From Kordiimonadales bacterium IMCC3096 (GTDB taxonomy: Bacteria > Pseudomonadota > Alphaproteobacteria > Minwuiales > Minwuiaceae): a stretch of 64,000 nucleotides of DNA. Below the pieces are notes generated by a model. That model was given only the letters and a program-made list of their open reading frames with translations, was not told the DNA's origin and made no database searches. The translations under genes were made by a program, and so were the position numbers. Every line of letters begins with the position of its first letter. The first letter of the stretch is position 1. The stretch spans positions 590,001 through 654,000 of the forward strand of contig CP018227.1 of assembly GCA_016865035.1 (NCBI GenBank). The letters run 5' to 3'. Below are positions 2,891-18,904 of the stretch, one piece after another.

Positions 2891-3858
2891 GCGGCCAGGT
2901 AACGGCCCTGATCTGCGGGGTGTCCGGCCAGGACGGGGCCTATCTGGCCCGGCTGCTGCTGGACAAGGGCTATCGGGTCATCGGCACCTCCCGCGATGCC
3001 ACGACCAACAGTTTCACTAACCTGGAACACCTGGGCATCGCGGACCGGGTCGAGACCGCCTCCATGGTTCTGACCGACTTCCGCAGTGTGCTGCAGACCC
3101 TGAGCCGCTTCGAGCCCGACGAGATCTACAATCTCGCCGGTCAGAGTTCGGTCGGCCTCTCGTTCCAGCAGCCGGTCGAGACGCTGGACAGTATCGCGGG
3201 CGGCACCATCAACCTGCTGGAGGCGGTGCGCTTCACCGGGCGTCCCATGAAGCTCTACAATGCCGGTTCCAGCGAATGTTTCGGTGATACCGGCGGCAAG
3301 GCCGCAAACGAGGATACCGCCTTCCGTCCGCGCAGCCCCTATGCGACCGCCAAGGCGACAGCGCACTGGGCGGTCGCGAACTATCGTGAAGCCTATGGCC
3401 TGCACGCCTGCACAGGCATCCTGTTCAATCATGAATCACCGTTGCGGCCCGCCCGCTTCGTCACGCGCAAGATCGTCAACGGCGCCTGCCGTATTGCCCG
3501 CGACGGCGGCGGGGTACTGCAGCTCGGCAATCTCTCGGTCAGCCGGGACTGGGGCTGGGCACCGGAATATGTCGATGCAATGTGGCGGATGCTGCAGACC
3601 GACGCGCCGTCGGACTATGTCATCGCCACCGGCACCAGCCATACGCTGCAGGCCTTCTGCGATGCGGCATTTGCCGAACTCGGCCTGGACGCCGCCGCAC
3701 ATGTCGAAATGGATGAAGACCTCAAGCGCCCTTCGGACATCGCGTTTGGCCAGGGCGATGCCAGCCGGGCCGCCCGCGACCTTGGCTGGACAGCGGGATA
3801 TCGGATGAAGGACATCGTGAAGGCCATGGTCGAGTCAGAGAAAGCCCTGCATGACTGA
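2887..3858 (+). CDS. gmd: GDP-mannose 4,6-dehydratase-like SDR
   Basis: This 323-residue extended SDR has the GMD-type nucleotide loop GVSGQDGAYL at residues 11-20, SSE at 128-130, the Tyr-x3-Lys pair at Y152 and K156, and the NHESPLRP segment typical of GDP-mannose 4,6-dehydratases. The reaction would give GDP-4-keto-6-deoxymannose, the precursor of rhamnose, fucose or perosamine. The usual Arg-Arg just after the first strand is replaced by TSRDATT, so the substrate may differ. The GTG start overlaps the previous stop as GTGA. No matching reductase or perosamine synthase is obvious next to it. Confidence 0.75.
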   Translation: MSGQVTALICGVSGQDGAYLARLLLDKGYRVIGTSRDATTNSFTNLEHLGIADRVETASMVLTDFRSVLQTLSRFEPDEIYNLAGQSSVGLSFQQPVETLDSIAGGTINLLEAVRFTGRPMKLYNAGSSECFGDTGGKAANEDTAFRPRSPYATAKATAHWAVANYREAYGLHACTGILFNHESPLRPARFVTRKIVNGACRIARDGGGVLQLGNLSVSRDWGWAPEYVDAMWRMLQTDAPSDYVIATGTSHTLQAFCDAAFAELGLDAAAHVEMDEDLKRPSDIAFGQGDASRAARDLGWTAGYRMKDIVKAMVESEKALHD

Positions 3859-4737
3859 GACAGACAAGATCGCGACGGGCCTGCCTGCCACGCAGGCTGA
3901 TGTACAGTGGACCCGTGTCATCCAGCCTCAGCGGGGCCTGTTCTCCGTCCCACTTGCGGAGATCTGGGCCTACCGTGACCTGCTGCTGCTGCTGGTGCGA
4001 CGCGATTTCGTTGCGCTCTACAAGCAGACAGTGCTGGGGCCGATCTGGTTCGTCATCCAGCCCGTGATGATGACCATCGTGTTCACCATCGTCTTCGGCA
4101 ACATCGCCAACATCTCCACCGATGGTGTGCCACACACGGTCTTCTATCTGGCCGGGATCACCATGTGGACGTTCTTTGCCGATGCCTTCACCAAGACATC
4201 CGAAACGTTCATCATCAACGCCAACATCTTCGGCAAGGTCTACTTTCCCCGCGTGATCGTGCCGCTCTCGGTGGTGCTGTCGGGGCTGCTGAAGTTTGCG
4301 GTCCAGTTCACCATCCTGGTCGGTTTCGTCGCCTATTTCGCGGCGACGACGGAGATCGTGCGTCCGAACTGGGCCGTGCTGCTGCTGCCGGTCCTGTTGC
4401 TGATGATGGGCACGCTGGGTCTCAGTCTCGGCATGATCATCTCCGCCCTGACCACAAAGTACCGGGACCTGCGGTTCCTGATGCAGTTCGGGGTCCAGCT
4501 GCTGATGTATGCGACGCCGGTGATCTATCCCGTCTCGTCCCTGCCCGAGGCCTATCGGGTCTACATCCTCGCCAACCCGATCACGCCCATCGTGGAGACC
4601 TTCCGCTATGCCTTTGTCGGCCGGGGAGACTTCGACCCGATGCATCTGGCCTACAGCGGCGGTGTGATCCTGGCCCTGCTGATCCTGGCGACGGTGATCT
4701 TCAATCAGGTCGAGAAGAATTTCATGGATACCGTCTG

Positions 4738-4738
<1 letters not shown>
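3851..4738 (+). CDS. wzm: O-antigen/polysaccharide ABC exporter, permease (Wzm-like)
   Basis: This 295-residue protein has about six hydrophobic segments and the cytoplasmic entry sequence typical of ABC-2 polysaccharide permeases (the LVRRDF and YKQTVLGPIWFVIQP region). With the next gene it forms the transporter that moves an undecaprenyl-linked glycan across the inner membrane. It overlaps the gmd end and its TGA overlaps the ATG of the ATPase gene, so the pair is translationally coupled. Length is close to the family norm. Confidence 0.9.
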
Positions 4739-6026
<1,288 letters not shown>

Positions 6027-6030
<4 letters not shown>

Positions 6031-6704
6031 AACTGCAGTACCGCAACAAGTTCGGGTCCCTGCCCGTTCGCATCCTGCGGCGGTTCGGGCGCGCATTGCG
6101 GCGAACGGGCTACAATGCGCTCGTCCTGTTGCCAGGATTCCGTTTCCTGAAGGCATACGAGGGCAAGCAGGGTCCGATCACGCTCTCGATCTGGTTCATG
6201 CAGAAAGTGCTTGGTTTCAATCGTGCCGCCTATTGGGGTGTCCATTTCACCAGCAAGGTGACCCAACCCAAGCAGATCATCGTCGGCAGGAACACGAACC
6301 CCGGGATAGAACCAGGATGCTACATTCAGGGCATCGGCACCGTGATCATCGGAGACTATACCGCGATCGCAGCGCGCACTTCGATCATCAGTGCCAATCA
6401 TGACCTGTACGACCTCAACAAGCACCTGCCCGGTCGCGTCGAGATTGGGTCGAATTGCTGGATCGGGGTCAATTGCGTGATCCTGCCCGATGTAACCTTG
6501 GGTGATTTTACGATCGTCGCCGCCGGCAGCATCGTCACAAAGCCCTTTCCTGAAGGCTATTGCGTCATTGCAGGGAACCCTGCCCGGAAGATCCGGGACC
6601 TGGATAGGGAACGCTGCCACCCGCGCAACGAAACCGACCCCTACATCGGCTATATGCCTGCGGCTGAATTCGAAGCCTACCGGGCGGCCTATCTATGGAC
6701 CTGA
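6027..6704 (+). CDS. Left-handed beta-helix (hexapeptide repeat) acyltransferase
   Basis: This 225-residue protein carries hexapeptide repeats from about residue 95 to 190, including IGSNCWIGVNCVILPDV and TIVAAGSIVTK, and ends in the AGNPARKIRDL segment typical of WcaF/LacA-like O- and N-acetyltransferases. A His in SANHDLY is the likely catalytic base. It probably acetylates a sugar of the glycan or its precursor in the cytoplasm. The ATG at 6027 was preferred over one at 6003 because it gives a four-base ATGA overlap with the ATPase gene. Acceptor unknown. Confidence 0.8.
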
Positions 6705-6759
6705 AGGATCAGCTTCATGGTTTGCCAGCCAATGCCGCTGCCAGAGCGGAGAATGTGAA

Positions 6760-7854
6760 GTGACAGTTCCAGAGCAGAACCATTTCGCCTGTTCGCGCTG
6801 CATCCTGACGAAGGCGGACGCTCCAAACCTGACCTTCGACGAAGATGGTGTCTGCGACCAGTGCCGCAGCTTCGATATTGCATATGCCAAGGTGCCGAGA
6901 ACCTGGGACGAGGCCGAACCGGAGCTCAACCGGACCGTCGAACAGCTGAAGGCGGCGGGAAAGGGAAAGCCCTACGACTGTCTGATCGGGCTCTCCGGCG
7001 GGGTGGACAGCACCTATATCGCATACCTGATGAAGCAGCATGGGCTGCGGCCGCTGGCAGTACATTTCGACAATGGCTGGAACACGGAGCTGGCCGTCGA
7101 GAACATTGACCGCATCGTCACCAGGCTGAACATCGATCTGGTGACATATGTCATCGATATCGAGGTACTGACCGACCACGCGATCTTCTGGGCACTGTAC
7201 GACATCGCGATGCGCAACCGCATCAAGTACATCATCAGCGGAGTCAATGTCGCTACCGAGCACATCATGCCGGATGGCTGGAACTACGAGAAGTACGACG
7301 CCTACAACATCATGGACATCTATCGAAAGCATGGTGGTGCGAGAAAGCTGAGCAACTACCCGCTCATGGATCGACGGAAGTGGCGGAAGCTGATGCGATC
7401 CGGCATCGAGCAGATCCAGATCCTGAACCTGATTCCCTATGACGTGGCCGAAGTACGCGAGACCATCGAGAGGGAACTTGGCTGGCGCCCCTATACCGGC
7501 AAGCATCACGAGTCGATCTTCACCCGTTTCTACCAGGGCTATCTGCTGCCCAGGAAATTCGGTGTCGACAAGCGAAAGGCCCATCTGTCCAACCTGGTGT
7601 GCAGTGGCCAGATGACCCGTGACGAGGCCTTGCGCGAGTTTCAGCAGGAAATCTATTCGCCTGAAGAACAACGCGAAGATCTGGAATTTGTCTGCAAGAA
7701 GCTTCAGATTTCGCAAGAGGAATTCGAAGATTTCATGCGCGCGCCGCCGCGGCGGCATCTGGACTTCGAGAACCACAAGTGGTTCTTCGCACGGTATCCG
7801 ATCTTCAAGCCCCTGCTGCCGCTGTGGCGCCTGTACAAGCGGCGCACCGCCTGA
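6760..7854 (+). CDS. N-acetyl sugar amidotransferase, copy 1 (WbpG/PseA type) with an 18-residue internal deletion
   Basis: This 364-residue protein belongs to the N-acetyl sugar amidotransferases, which turn an acetamido group into an acetamidino group using ATP and ammonia. It has a zinc-ribbon Cys set at C11, C14, C32 and C35 and a PP-loop SGGVDS at residues 79-84. The start is a GTG at 6760 with a GGAG ribosome site eight bases before it. Compared with the paralogue at 17726, it lacks exactly 18 residues between D133 and I134, in frame. HisH and HisF paralogues downstream (10636-12082) can supply ammonia. Codon use and the rest of the protein look normal, so it may still be active. Confidence 0.85.
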   Translation: MTVPEQNHFACSRCILTKADAPNLTFDEDGVCDQCRSFDIAYAKVPRTWDEAEPELNRTVEQLKAAGKGKPYDCLIGLSGGVDSTYIAYLMKQHGLRPLAVHFDNGWNTELAVENIDRIVTRLNIDLVTYVIDIEVLTDHAIFWALYDIAMRNRIKYIISGVNVATEHIMPDGWNYEKYDAYNIMDIYRKHGGARKLSNYPLMDRRKWRKLMRSGIEQIQILNLIPYDVAEVRETIERELGWRPYTGKHHESIFTRFYQGYLLPRKFGVDKRKAHLSNLVCSGQMTRDEALREFQQEIYSPEEQREDLEFVCKKLQISQEEFEDFMRAPPRRHLDFENHKWFFARYPIFKPLLPLWRLYKRRTA

Positions 7855-9664: not shown

Positions 9665-10639
9665 ATGACCGAACAGCCCACGATATCCGTCGTCATCCCC
9701 GTGAAGAACGAGGCCGCCGGAATCGCCGCCTGTCTTGACGGAATCCTGAGCCAGACCGTGCCGGTGAAGGAAATTCTGGTGATCGACTCCGGGTCCACTG
9801 ACGGAACGCAGGAGATCGTGCAGGGATACGACCTTGCCCGTCTGCTGGAGATCGAGCCAGGCGATTTCAATCACGGCGACACTCGCAATCTGGGCGTTCG
9901 TGAGACCAACGGCGAACTCATCCTCTTCACGGTTGGCGACGCGCGCCCCGTGGACGACCGCTGGATCGAGCGGTTGCAGGCCGGCTTCGTCGCCGAAGAC
10001 GTTGCGGCAGTTGGCGGCATCCAGATCGTCGCCCACGATCCCAGCAACAATCCGCTGGAATGGTACCGGCCTGTTTCCGAACCGGTGCGGTCCGTCCACC
10101 GGTTCGGCAGCGCTGCCGAATTCGATGCGGCGGACGGTGCCGCGAAGCAGTCGGCCTGCGTCATCGACGATGTGACGTCGATGTATCGACGCGCGTTCCT
10201 GGAGGCTGTCCCCTTCCGCAGGACGGTCTATGGAGAGGACATGCTGATCTGTGTCGATGCCCTGCGCGCGGGTCATGCGCTGGTCAGGGACCCCGCAGCC
10301 TGTGTATTCCACTATCATCTTCAGAACTACAGGACGACATTGCAGCGGACTGTCGCTGTCTGTCTCATGCGCCATGACCTTTTCGGTACCACGCCGGGGG
10401 TACCGGTATCGCAACCCGCCCGGGAAGCAGTGCGACTGATGCGGGAACCGTCACTCTCGCTGCGTCAGAAAGTGCATTGGTGGCGCAACCAGCGCCAGTG
10501 CTTCCGCGGCATGATGGATGGAATCGCATTGTTCGAGAAGGCAAGATCAGAAGGCGCAGCGGCGCTGGCCGCCCTGCATGAGGAATACCTCGGAACACCG
10601 CCGATCCCGGTCAAGCGCGGGCAGGCGAACGCCGCATGA
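9665..10639 (+). CDS. Glycosyltransferase family 2 (rhamnosyltransferase-like)
   Basis: This 324-residue GT-A enzyme has PTISVVIPVKNEAAGI at its start, IDSGSTDGT in place of the first acidic motif, and the FNHGDTRNLGV segment often seen in rhamnosyltransferase-like GT2 proteins. A GEDMLICVDALRAG segment fits the acceptor-binding region. It begins five bases after the nucleotidyltransferase gene and overlaps hisH by four bases. It would extend the glycan in the cytoplasm. Assignment to a rhamnose donor is only a family tendency. Confidence 0.8.
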   Translation: MTEQPTISVVIPVKNEAAGIAACLDGILSQTVPVKEILVIDSGSTDGTQEIVQGYDLARLLEIEPGDFNHGDTRNLGVRETNGELILFTVGDARPVDDRWIERLQAGFVAEDVAAVGGIQIVAHDPSNNPLEWYRPVSEPVRSVHRFGSAAEFDAADGAAKQSACVIDDVTSMYRRAFLEAVPFRRTVYGEDMLICVDALRAGHALVRDPAACVFHYHLQNYRTTLQRTVAVCLMRHDLFGTTPGVPVSQPAREAVRLMREPSLSLRQKVHWWRNQRQCFRGMMDGIALFEKARSEGAAALAALHEEYLGTPPIPVKRGQANAA

Positions 10640-11277
10640 CCGCAGGAATGATCACAATCGTCGACTATGGCTGCGGAAACCCCGCCTCCATCCGCAACAT
10701 GCTGAAGAAGCTGGGTATCAAGGCCACGATCACGTCGGAGGCGGAGGATATCCTGACTTCCGACCGGATCATCTTCCCCGGCGTCGGTGCTTTCGACTAC
10801 GGGGCCGAGAGCATTCAGTCGAAGGGCATCGCAGAGGCGCTGGAACAGCGGGTGATCCGCGACGGCGTTCCGATCCTGGGGATATGTGTCGGCATGCAGC
10901 TGTTTGCCCGACGCAGTGACGAGGGCGAACTGCCCGGTCTCGGCTGGATCAATGGCGATGTCCTGGCGTTCGACCGCACCAGACTTGGACCGACCGACCG
11001 GGTGCCGCACATGGGCTGGGCCAGCCTGGACGTGAAGCAGCCGGAGAAGGCATTGCACGGCTTCCACGAGGATCCGCGCTTCTACTTCGTGCATTCATTT
11101 CACATGACGTGCGATGACCCGGCAGATGTCGCTGCGACGGCCCATCATGGCTATGATTTCTGCGCCGCAGTCGCGCACGACAATCTGATCGGCGTTCAGT
11201 TTCACCCGGAGAAGAGCCATCGCTTCGGCATGACGCTGCTGCGCAACTTCGCCGAAGGAAAGACAGGCGCCGAATGA
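10636..11277 (+). CDS. hisH: HisH-like glutamine amidotransferase for sugar amidination
   Basis: This 213-residue class I glutaminase has the nucleophile C84 in GICVGMQ and the partner residues H190 and E192 in FHPEKS. It releases ammonia from glutamine and passes it through the HisF-like partner encoded 13 bases downstream. The pair sits among wbp-type genes, with no other his genes nearby, and two N-acetyl sugar amidotransferases are in the operon. This matches the HisH2/HisF2/WbpG set of Pseudomonas O-antigen loci rather than histidine synthesis. The start at 10636 overlaps the preceding gene by four bases. Confidence 0.85.
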   Translation: MTAGMITIVDYGCGNPASIRNMLKKLGIKATITSEAEDILTSDRIIFPGVGAFDYGAESIQSKGIAEALEQRVIRDGVPILGICVGMQLFARRSDEGELPGLGWINGDVLAFDRTRLGPTDRVPHMGWASLDVKQPEKALHGFHEDPRFYFVHSFHMTCDDPADVAATAHHGYDFCAAVAHDNLIGVQFHPEKSHRFGMTLLRNFAEGKTGAE

Positions 11278-11290
11278 GATCTGATCCCCG

Positions 11291-12082
11291 ATGAAACGTG
11301 TGCGCGTCATACCCACCCTGCTGATCGAGCAGGGGCGTCTGGTAAAGACCATCAAGTTCGGCAAGCGGACCTATATCGGTGATCCGGTGAACACGGTGCG
11401 CATCTTCAGCGACAAGGAAGTCGACGAACTGATGCTGCTCGACATCGGTGTCGCGAAGGAAGGCAGGGAACCGGATTTCGACCTGCTGCGCGAGATCGCC
11501 AGCGAATGTTTCATTCCCTTCGGCTACGGCGGTGGCATCCGCACACTGGAGCAGGCGCGCCGGGCCTTTGATGCCGGGGTCGAGAAGGTCGTGCTGAACA
11601 CCGCCCTGCACCGTGCGCCGACACTGGCGAGCAAGATCGCCCGCATGTACGGCAGCCAGGCCGTGGTTGCGAGCATTGACGTGAAGAAGGGCCTGCTGGG
11701 CGGCCCGAAGGTCATGACCGAATGCGGCTCCAGGCGCGTTTCCGGGGACGTCACGGAGATCGCGCGCAACGCAGTCGATGCCGGGGCGGGCGAGATCCTG
11801 CTGACGGCCATGGATCGCGACGGAACCTTCGATGGCTACGACATGGAACTGATCAAGCGGGTCACTGCCGCTGTCGATGTGCCGGTCATTGCCAGCGGCG
11901 GTGCACGCGGGATTCCCGATTTCCTGGCCGCGATCAAGGAAGGCGGCGCCTCCGCTGTCGCGGCGGGTGCCCAGTTTGTCTTCAAGGGTCCGCACAGGGC
12001 CGTTCTGGTCAACTACCCCAGCCAGGCCGTCCTGCGCGAAGGGCTGTTCAATCACCTTGGTCCCGAAGACATCACTGTCTGA
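11291..12082 (+). CDS. hisF: HisF-like ammonia-channel subunit lacking the first catalytic aspartate
   Basis: This 263-residue TIM barrel aligns with HisF without gaps over the start. The first HisF catalytic Asp (D11 in Thermotoga) is Leu here, in IPTLLIEQG, while the second is kept as D130 in VVASID. Loss of D11 should abolish the cyclase step but leave the ammonia tunnel, which is what a partner of a sugar amidotransferase needs. The phosphate-binding GGG near residue 80 and SGGARG are present. It follows hisH by 13 bases and would form a complex with it. Confidence 0.85.
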   Translation: MKRVRVIPTLLIEQGRLVKTIKFGKRTYIGDPVNTVRIFSDKEVDELMLLDIGVAKEGREPDFDLLREIASECFIPFGYGGGIRTLEQARRAFDAGVEKVVLNTALHRAPTLASKIARMYGSQAVVASIDVKKGLLGGPKVMTECGSRRVSGDVTEIARNAVDAGAGEILLTAMDRDGTFDGYDMELIKRVTAAVDVPVIASGGARGIPDFLAAIKEGGASAVAAGAQFVFKGPHRAVLVNYPSQAVLREGLFNHLGPEDITV

Positions 12083-17725: not shown

Positions 17726-18904
17726 ATGAGCAGGACAGAAGAGCCGGACCTGAACCAGATCCAGAACCATCGCCAGTGCAGCGTCGGTGTACTGGATACG
17801 GGCGACGATCCGGACATGCGCTTCGATGACGAAGGGCGCAGCCACTACTACCACGACTACATGCGCGCCGCTGCCGAGCTGGTTCACGAGGGACCAGAGG
17901 GCGAGGCCATGCTGCAGGCACTGGCCGAGCAGATCCGTGCGGACGGCAAGGGCAAGCCCTACGACTGCATCATGGGTCTGAGCGGTGGCGTCGACAGCAC
18001 CTATGTGGCACTGCAGGCGCGCCGTCTGGGACTGCGCCCCCTCGCCGTTCATCTCGACAATGGCTGGAACGCGGAGCTTGCGGTCCAGAACATCGAACAG
18101 ATCGTCAGCCGCCTGGACATCGACCTGCACACCCATGTCATTGACTGGAACGAGTTCCGGGACCTGCAGCGCGCCCACATCAAGGCATCCGTGATCGACA
18201 TCGAAGTCGTTTCGGACCACGCGATATTTGCTTTGCTGAACCAGTTGGCATCGAAGTATGGCATCCGCCATGTCCTCAGCGGCACCAATGTGGTGACCGA
18301 ATTCGTCATGCCGCCGCACTGGATCTATGCCAAGACCGATCACGTGAACATACAGGCGATCCACGCTGCCTATGGCGAGGTACCGCTGAAGACCTACCCC
18401 TTCATGTCCTTGAAACAGAAGAAGTGGGACATGATGTTCCGGGGACTGAAATCCCACTCCATCCTGAACCTGATGCCTTACGACAAGGCTGCGGTGAAAC
18501 AGCGGATCATCGAGGAACTGGGCTGGCGGGACTATGGCGGCAAGCACCACGAGTCGATATTCACCCGCTTCTACCAAGGCTACATCCTGCCGGTGAAGTT
18601 CGGTGTCGACAAGCGCAAGGCCCATCTGACGAACCTGATCTATGCCGGACAGATCACCAAGGAAGAGGCGCTGGCCGAACTGTCCGCGCCCCCCTACGAT
18701 CCGGATCAGATGGAGGAGGACCGCCAGTTCGTCTCCAAGAAGCTGGGGTTCACCCTGGCGGAGTTCGATGAACTCATGCGGGCGCCGCCGCGGCCCCACA
18801 GCGACTTTGCGGTCGAGCGTTCCGTCTACGAGATGTACCCCGCGTTGCGCCCGCTGCGTGGTGCCTTCAACCTGATCAAGCCCCGTGCCGGGAAGCGTAC
18901 CTGA
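17726..18904 (+). CDS. N-acetyl sugar amidotransferase, copy 2 (WbpG/PseA type) with degenerate zinc ribbon
   Basis: This 392-residue paralogue of the gene at 6760 has the PP-loop SGGVDS at residues 86-91 and the full WNEFRDLQ helix (141-158) that the other copy lacks. The zinc-ribbon cysteines are mostly gone: only C18 remains, and the second Cys pair is replaced by Ser39 and Tyr42 in GRSHYY. The C-terminal half, with GKHHESIFTRFYQGY and DKRKAHL, is nearly the same in both copies. It would amidinate an acetamido sugar with ammonia from HisH/HisF. The ATG at 17726 follows the previous stop by one base. Confidence 0.85.
   Translation: MSRTEEPDLNQIQNHRQCSVGVLDTGDDPDMRFDDEGRSHYYHDYMRAAAELVHEGPEGEAMLQALAEQIRADGKGKPYDCIMGLSGGVDSTYVALQARRLGLRPLAVHLDNGWNAELAVQNIEQIVSRLDIDLHTHVIDWNEFRDLQRAHIKASVIDIEVVSDHAIFALLNQLASKYGIRHVLSGTNVVTEFVMPPHWIYAKTDHVNIQAIHAAYGEVPLKTYPFMSLKQKKWDMMFRGLKSHSILNLMPYDKAAVKQRIIEELGWRDYGGKHHESIFTRFYQGYILPVKFGVDKRKAHLTNLIYAGQITKEEALAELSAPPYDPDQMEEDRQFVSKKLGFTLAEFDELMRAPPRPHSDFAVERSVYEMYPALRPLRGAFNLIKPRAGKRT

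Follow-up and report, generated by a model that had tools for sequence, protein, structure and literature searches.

The N-acetyl sugar amidotransferase gene referred to here as copy 1, one of two WbuX-family genes located in a polysaccharide cluster of the window (the whole 64,000-nucleotide stretch of DNA that was analysed), lacks 18 residues (54 bp) in frame when compared with the second gene, copy 2, and is probably a young loss-of-function allele. The segment is present in all other family genes that were examined, the deletion is bordered by a short repeat, and the loss is restricted to the lineage of the window. Copy 1 is a WbuX/WbpG-type amidotransferase with the PP-loop ATP pyrophosphatase fold that has lost one whole predicted helix. 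The shortened protein may still roughly fold while its ancestral activity would be lost or nearly lost, leaving a young loss-of-function allele in a surface-polysaccharide cluster whose decoration genes appear to undergo exchange.

The genome carrying the window consists of 4.29 Mb in a single contig, is complete (100%) and contains four family members. Copy 1 begins with a GTG codon and encodes 364 amino acids, 18 residues fewer than expected, in an open reading frame with no stop and no frameshift. Both copy 1 and copy 2 passed the cut-off of the TIGR03573 (WbuX) profile, which is 203.2 bits; copy 1 scored 284.2 bits, with the match divided into two stretches. The PP-loop, given by the pattern SGGxDS, was present as SGGVDS in both copies, and alignment revealed that copy 1 also retains the HxDNGWN motif together with the D, E, D and H residues past the junction. 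The four cysteines of copy 1 correspond to the zinc site in the solved relative 8WEX. In PMC10607449, the tetracysteine motif CxxC...CxxC is named as characteristic of the family, and the 8WEX enzyme is described as having a PP-loop, a zinc-binding tetracysteine at the edge of the pocket and a wide open putative substrate pocket. The coordinates of these features and of the surrounding genes are collected in Table 1.

Table 1. Positions in the window of copy 1, copy 2 and the associated features.
Feature	Position	Strand	Basis
Membrane part of the ABC exporter	3851-4738		
Wzt with C-terminal domain	4738-6030		
Block unlike G008 (approximate borders)	5518..6895	+	blastn gap 5543 to 6835, binned identity
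Copy 1, N-acetyl sugar amidotransferase (WbuX/WbpG/NASAT family)	6760..7854	+	TIGR03573 profile, translation
Tetracysteine motif of copy 1 (C11, C14, C32, C35)	6790..6864	+	motif description in PMC10607449
PP-loop SGGVDS of copy 1, intact	6994..7011	+	alignment
Deletion junction, sole remaining GTCATCGAT (Val131-Ile132-Asp133)	7150..7158	+	DNA alignment with the G008 and G005 orthologs
Trp144, eleven residues past the junction	7189..7191	+	alignment
HisH-type glutaminase, likely ammonia source	10636..11277	+	TIGR01855, 212.6 bits, cut-off 105.4
HisF-type partner (AglZ/HisF2 family acetamidino modification protein)	11291..12082	+	NF038364, 327.8 bits, cut-off 310
Copy 2, the other WbuX-family gene (392 aa), which has the segment	17726..18904	+	TIGR03573, 252.8 bits
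54 bp of copy 2 matching the part deleted from copy 1 (WNEFRDLQRAHIKASVID)	18146..18199	+	

The right comparison for copy 1 is the ortholog from the same genus and not copy 2. The ortholog in the same-genus genome G008 was 88% identical to copy 1 at the protein level and occupied the same place in a syntenic cluster; at the DNA level, two stretches (5.5 and 8.7 kb) were approximately 90% identical. The ortholog in G005, which also belongs to the genus, was more distant, with 64% identity to copy 1. Since the segment is present in both of these orthologs, the loss took place in the lineage of the window after its parting from G008. An ortholog of copy 1 could be found in three of the seven genomes of the genus, its own genome counted. 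G004 and G006 (a fragmented assembly, 89% complete) carried the copy-2 type only, besides distant members, and gave no match of the copy-1 type.

The in-frame gap of 18 residues that the initial annotation had placed at 7130-7170 is real, and its junction lies inside that interval. The copy 1 protein reads ...DLVTY-VID-IEVLTDHAIF... at the junction, compared to ...DLHTH-VID-WNEFRDLQRAHIKAS-VID-IEVVSDHAIF... in copy 2 and VTY-VIDWDDFRELQLAYLRAGVID-IEVLTDHAIF in the G008 ortholog. In the G008 DNA the segment is flanked by GTCATCGAC and GTCATCGAT at a spacing of 54 bp, and the repeat shared by both borders is 8 bp long, GTCATCGA. A single GTCATCGAT is left in the window, and thus exactly one repeat and the intervening stretch were lost. 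When the G008 sequence was taken as the ancestral state, the ancestor showed a direct repeat at both borders, one of which is left, and the loss equalled the repeat spacing. This layout fits slippage, or some comparable event at short repeats, in which the 54 bp would have been lost by slipped mispairing or the like between the two copies of GTCATCGA. The initial annotation had likewise proposed slippage or recombination between short repeats, and the G008 sequence, with its 8-bp repeat at the deletion distance, supports this. Val-Ile-Asp with near-identical DNA at both borders, as that annotation described, was seen in G008; the DNA of copy 2 itself contained no exact 8-bp repeat at 54-bp spacing. 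The agreement between repeat and deletion goes beyond chance: only two exact direct repeats of at least 8 bp, lying 9-150 bp apart, occurred in the intact G008 gene, the border repeat being one of them. By codon usage alone, however, about 21% of pairs of VID triplets would be identical across the first 8 bases, so that conservation of the VID...VID motif accounts for the repeat in part.

The deletion borders also bear on whether the gap could be a sequencing or assembly artefact, or a mutation of a single cultured stock. The short allele is known from one genome, the single available assembly of the species, but this genome is finished as a single contig and 100% complete. Loss in frame, precisely from one 8-bp repeat to the next, is typical of biological events, and repeats as short as 8 bp do not as a rule mislead assemblers. 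An artefact or stock mutation is the least probable of the explanations considered.

Conservation of the segment was evaluated among close relatives and across the wider family. For the close relatives, the best 80 of 544 encoding stretches were kept, picked by likeness to copy 1 and its relatives and representing 76 distinct loci; 91 distinct ORFs were compared, copy 1 being one of them. For the wider family, 385 genomes from the class gave 109 other genes above the TIGR03573 cut-off, and a phylum survey of 398 genomes gave 46 further genes, in genomes outside the class survey. Both surveys were drawn from larger groups and covered the genes above the cut-off together with a few below it. For 15 of the 145 survey genes retrieved for this alignment the PP-loop pattern was unmatched and the strand was set by the fewest stops, two of them having no stop on either strand. 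The alignment to many family members, made in search of natural lackers of the segment, revealed loss in none of the 90 other close ORFs (from loci including the best 80 of 544 encoding stretches) and in none of the 155 survey genes above the cut-off, all of which were read and aligned. The segment was 17 residues long in 123 survey genes and 18 in the other 32, while copy 1 has 3 residues; short family members as natural lackers were therefore ruled out. Nor was the profile match split at the split point of copy 1 in any of the 155 survey genes. One WbuX member below the cut-off, L120 (G316:C1:3317700-3318950), was found frameshifted into two pieces, the first of which has the segment.

At the residue level, W134, F137 and Q141 were invariant in the 90 close ORFs (from loci including the best 80 of 544), and position 136 was occupied by E in 87 and D in 3. 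In the wider family W134 was present in 39 of 155 genes, and other letters occurred at positions 137 and 141. The earlier statement that the lost helix is conserved in the family thus stands for its length, in all 90 and all 155 genes, whereas the invariance of W, F and Q is confined to close relatives. Being constant only in length across the wider family, the segment need not be catalytic. With the presence of this helix, lying after strand 3 and ahead of the following core helix, taken as an unpublished criterion, copy 1 was the only member examined that lacked it.

Structure prediction agreed with the suggestion that a helix was lost. The AlphaFold2 model of the intact ortholog (mean pLDDT 91.3) contained a strand at 126-131, a helix at 134-147 and a further helix at 154-170; the lost residues are equivalent to 134-151, that is, the first helix and its link to the next. 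The deletion thus removes a complete predicted helix, which in the intact protein follows strand 3 and precedes another core helix. In the copy 1 model (mean pLDDT 87.8) the strand at 126-131 was followed by a loop (block pLDDT 64) and then by a helix starting at 139. Block pLDDT values fell at 101-110 (81 compared to 96), 171-180 (74) and 191-200 (76), which suggests that in the modelled fold the lost helix packed near these blocks. For both models, 8WEX was the best structure match and the sole listed match named N-acetyl sugar amidotransferase. It aligned to the copy 1 model over 298 residues (Z 22.8, rmsd 3.3) and to the intact ortholog model over 308 residues (Z 25.8, rmsd 3.1). The predicted fold carries no information on activity.

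The residue Trp144 of copy 1 has no counterpart in the family genes compared. Its position was occupied by A in 58, G in 21, S in 7, C in 3 and T in 1 of the 90 close ORFs, and no W was found there among the 155 wider genes, which had mostly A, T, S and N and a few V, I, Y, H, Q, C, L, F, E and G. Trp144 may mark the onset of decay, or it may compensate for the deletion. The latter possibility belongs to an explanation in which copy 1, though shortened, retains activity, possibly on a different substrate in a wider pocket, and in which Trp144, located in the helix after the junction, compensates for the loss. The retained PP-loop, HxDNGWN motif, zinc cysteines and post-junction D, E, D and H are in favour of such activity, as are the fold, retained in the model (Z 22.8 to 8WEX, compared to 25.8 for the intact ortholog), and a tryptophan found in no other row. 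It is opposed by the presence of the segment in all other genes examined.

Selection on copy 1 bears on the same question. Between the window and G008, the dN/dS of copy 1 was 0.068 for residues 134-364, after the junction, compared to 0.057 for copy 2, 0.069 for hisF and 0.089 for hisH. A wholly neutral branch would predict approximately 124 amino-acid changes and 7 stops in residues 134-364, whereas at most 11 amino-acid changes (5 assigned and 6 unassigned) and zero stops were observed, so that neutrality could have lasted for about one tenth of the branch at most. The ratio of amino-acid to synonymous changes in residues 134-364 was 5:9 on the window branch and 2:12 on the G008 branch (p 0.38, with 6 amino-acid and 26 synonymous changes unassigned). 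In residues 51-364 the corresponding ratios were 8:11 and 5:19 (p 0.19), and a count using one outgroup gave 8:14 and 3:15 (p 0.29). Copy 2, as a control, gave 8:43 on the window branch and 5:20 on the G008 branch. The difference between copy 1 (8:11) and copy 2 (8:43) on the window branch, with copy 1 the richer in amino-acid changes, reached p 0.03, uncorrected, and as the outgroups lie at different distances it does no more than hint at relaxation or a shift. Judged as a possible pseudogene, copy 1 combines an intact frame and low dN/dS with an excess of amino-acid changes that is weak against copy 2 and non-significant against G008. Constraint has thus acted on copy 1 over most of the period following the split: either the deletion happened recently, or the shortened protein remains functional. 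Strong constraint and the lack of stops speak for a working protein, but the measured constraint may mostly predate the loss, and we regard continued activity of the shortened copy 1 as unlikely. A young loss of function is the explanation that we prefer.

The cluster contains galE, an ABC-type polysaccharide exporter, hisH, hisF, and oxidoreductase, acetyltransferase and aminotransferase genes with a probable role in amino-sugar synthesis. The HisH/HisF pair is the probable ammonia source of copy 1. DNA around the block unlike G008 was approximately 90% identical to that genome. The exchanged block comprises the C-terminal domain of Wzt (Wzt_C), a hexapeptide acetyltransferase at 6003-6704 (Hexapep) and the first approximately 45 codons of copy 1; the acetyltransferase had no match in the compared G008 stretches. 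In G005, a different ORF occupies the slot of the exchanged block (L035, about 5322-6572). A recombination breakpoint at the deletion itself was also considered. Its first hint was a tblastn identity of 76% before and 94% after, and it was rejected, as binned DNA identity places the break near codon 45 and not at codons 131-133. According to PMC9445017, some O antigens are chemically modified at their growing end, and the O-antigen exporter recognises this modification through a carbohydrate-binding part. The exchange of the neighbouring Wzt_C and acetyltransferase is consistent with a changed decoration and was counted in favour of loss of function; an exchanged decoration that made the reaction of copy 1 unneeded would explain why the loss was tolerated.

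Copy 2 was 50% identical to copy 1. Its zinc cysteines are degenerate (C, G, S, Y), with one of the four left. In a maximum-likelihood tree of 91 rows, the clade holding copy 1 (18 rows, support 93/96) has all four cysteines, and the clade holding copy 2 (46 rows, support 99/96) has degenerate ones. An origin of copy 1 by recent duplication of copy 2 was ruled out by these separate clades. On the basis of the tree, the two copies are taken as ancient paralogs, and their two clades often occur together in one cluster. Copy 1 thus has a long history of its own as an accessory enzyme; it is no spare of copy 2 and probably serves a second sugar or position. The clade of copy 2 lacks one to three of the four zinc-binding cysteines, and fewer than four were present in 53 of the 91 tree rows; a sizeable zinc-less WbuX subclass seems to exist, judging by these residues. 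Genes with degenerate cysteines were followed by hisH/hisF in Caulobacteraceae and several Bacteroidota loci.

Multi-copy loci were counted among 70 of the 76 loci, those with ORFs duplicating others being left out. Both clades were present in one cluster in 6 of the 12 multi-copy loci (L042, L044, L045, L046, L051 and L055) and likewise in the Minwuia genomes G000, G008 and G005. The gene order in L042 and L045 was wzt, copy-1 type, copy-2 type, hisH, hisF. Paired genes with four and with degenerate cysteines occurred about 5.6-8.2 kb apart in a Caulobacteraceae MAG and in Bacteroidota, and in four of the six paired loci hisF followed the second WbuX gene, with or without a detected hisH. No more than one hisH and one hisF could be detected in each of the 12 multi-copy loci. 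The shared clusters and the single hisH and hisF would suit a hetero-oligomer in which copy 1 gives the zinc site and copy 2 the helix, so that the loss is tolerated, and 8WEX was crystallised as a dimer (PMC10607449). The same paper describes the dimer contacts as mostly not conserved, both members of the other pairs retain the helix, and the copy-2 types of G004 and the fragmented G006, having no copy-1 match, presumably work alone. Such a hetero-oligomer is very improbable.

No report of the copy 1 deletion or of paired WbuX paralogs was found among the open-licence PMC papers listed. The deletion in copy 1 is a natural removal of one secondary-structure element that all other examined members of this little-studied enzyme family retain, and the intact same-genus ortholog together with copy 1 forms a clean pair for probing the role of the helix. 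The cluster also illustrates how decoration genes of polysaccharide clusters may change through exchange and small deletions. There is a slim chance that the helix-less copy 1 works, either as an amidotransferase whose pocket has been reshaped, with Trp144 as a stabilising residue, or as a zinc-bearing partner of copy 2. A working copy 1 would mean that the enzyme can dispense with a helix found in all other members seen, and that one active site can be divided between two WbuX clades.

When compared with known systems, copy 1 resembles the WbuX/WbpG/NASAT enzymes (TIGR03573; 8WEX, LpNASAT) in its score above the cut-off, its PP-loop, its tetracysteine motif and its predicted fold, and its cluster includes HisH and HisF2-type genes, as in those systems. 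It differs from every other member examined in lacking the helix segment. Small in-frame deletions between short direct repeats are known to arise by replication slippage or RecA-independent recombination. The deletion in copy 1 has the same layout as such deletions, with no difference seen, and as a genome event it is an ordinary instance; what makes it notable is that an element constant elsewhere was lost while the gene shows little sign of decay.
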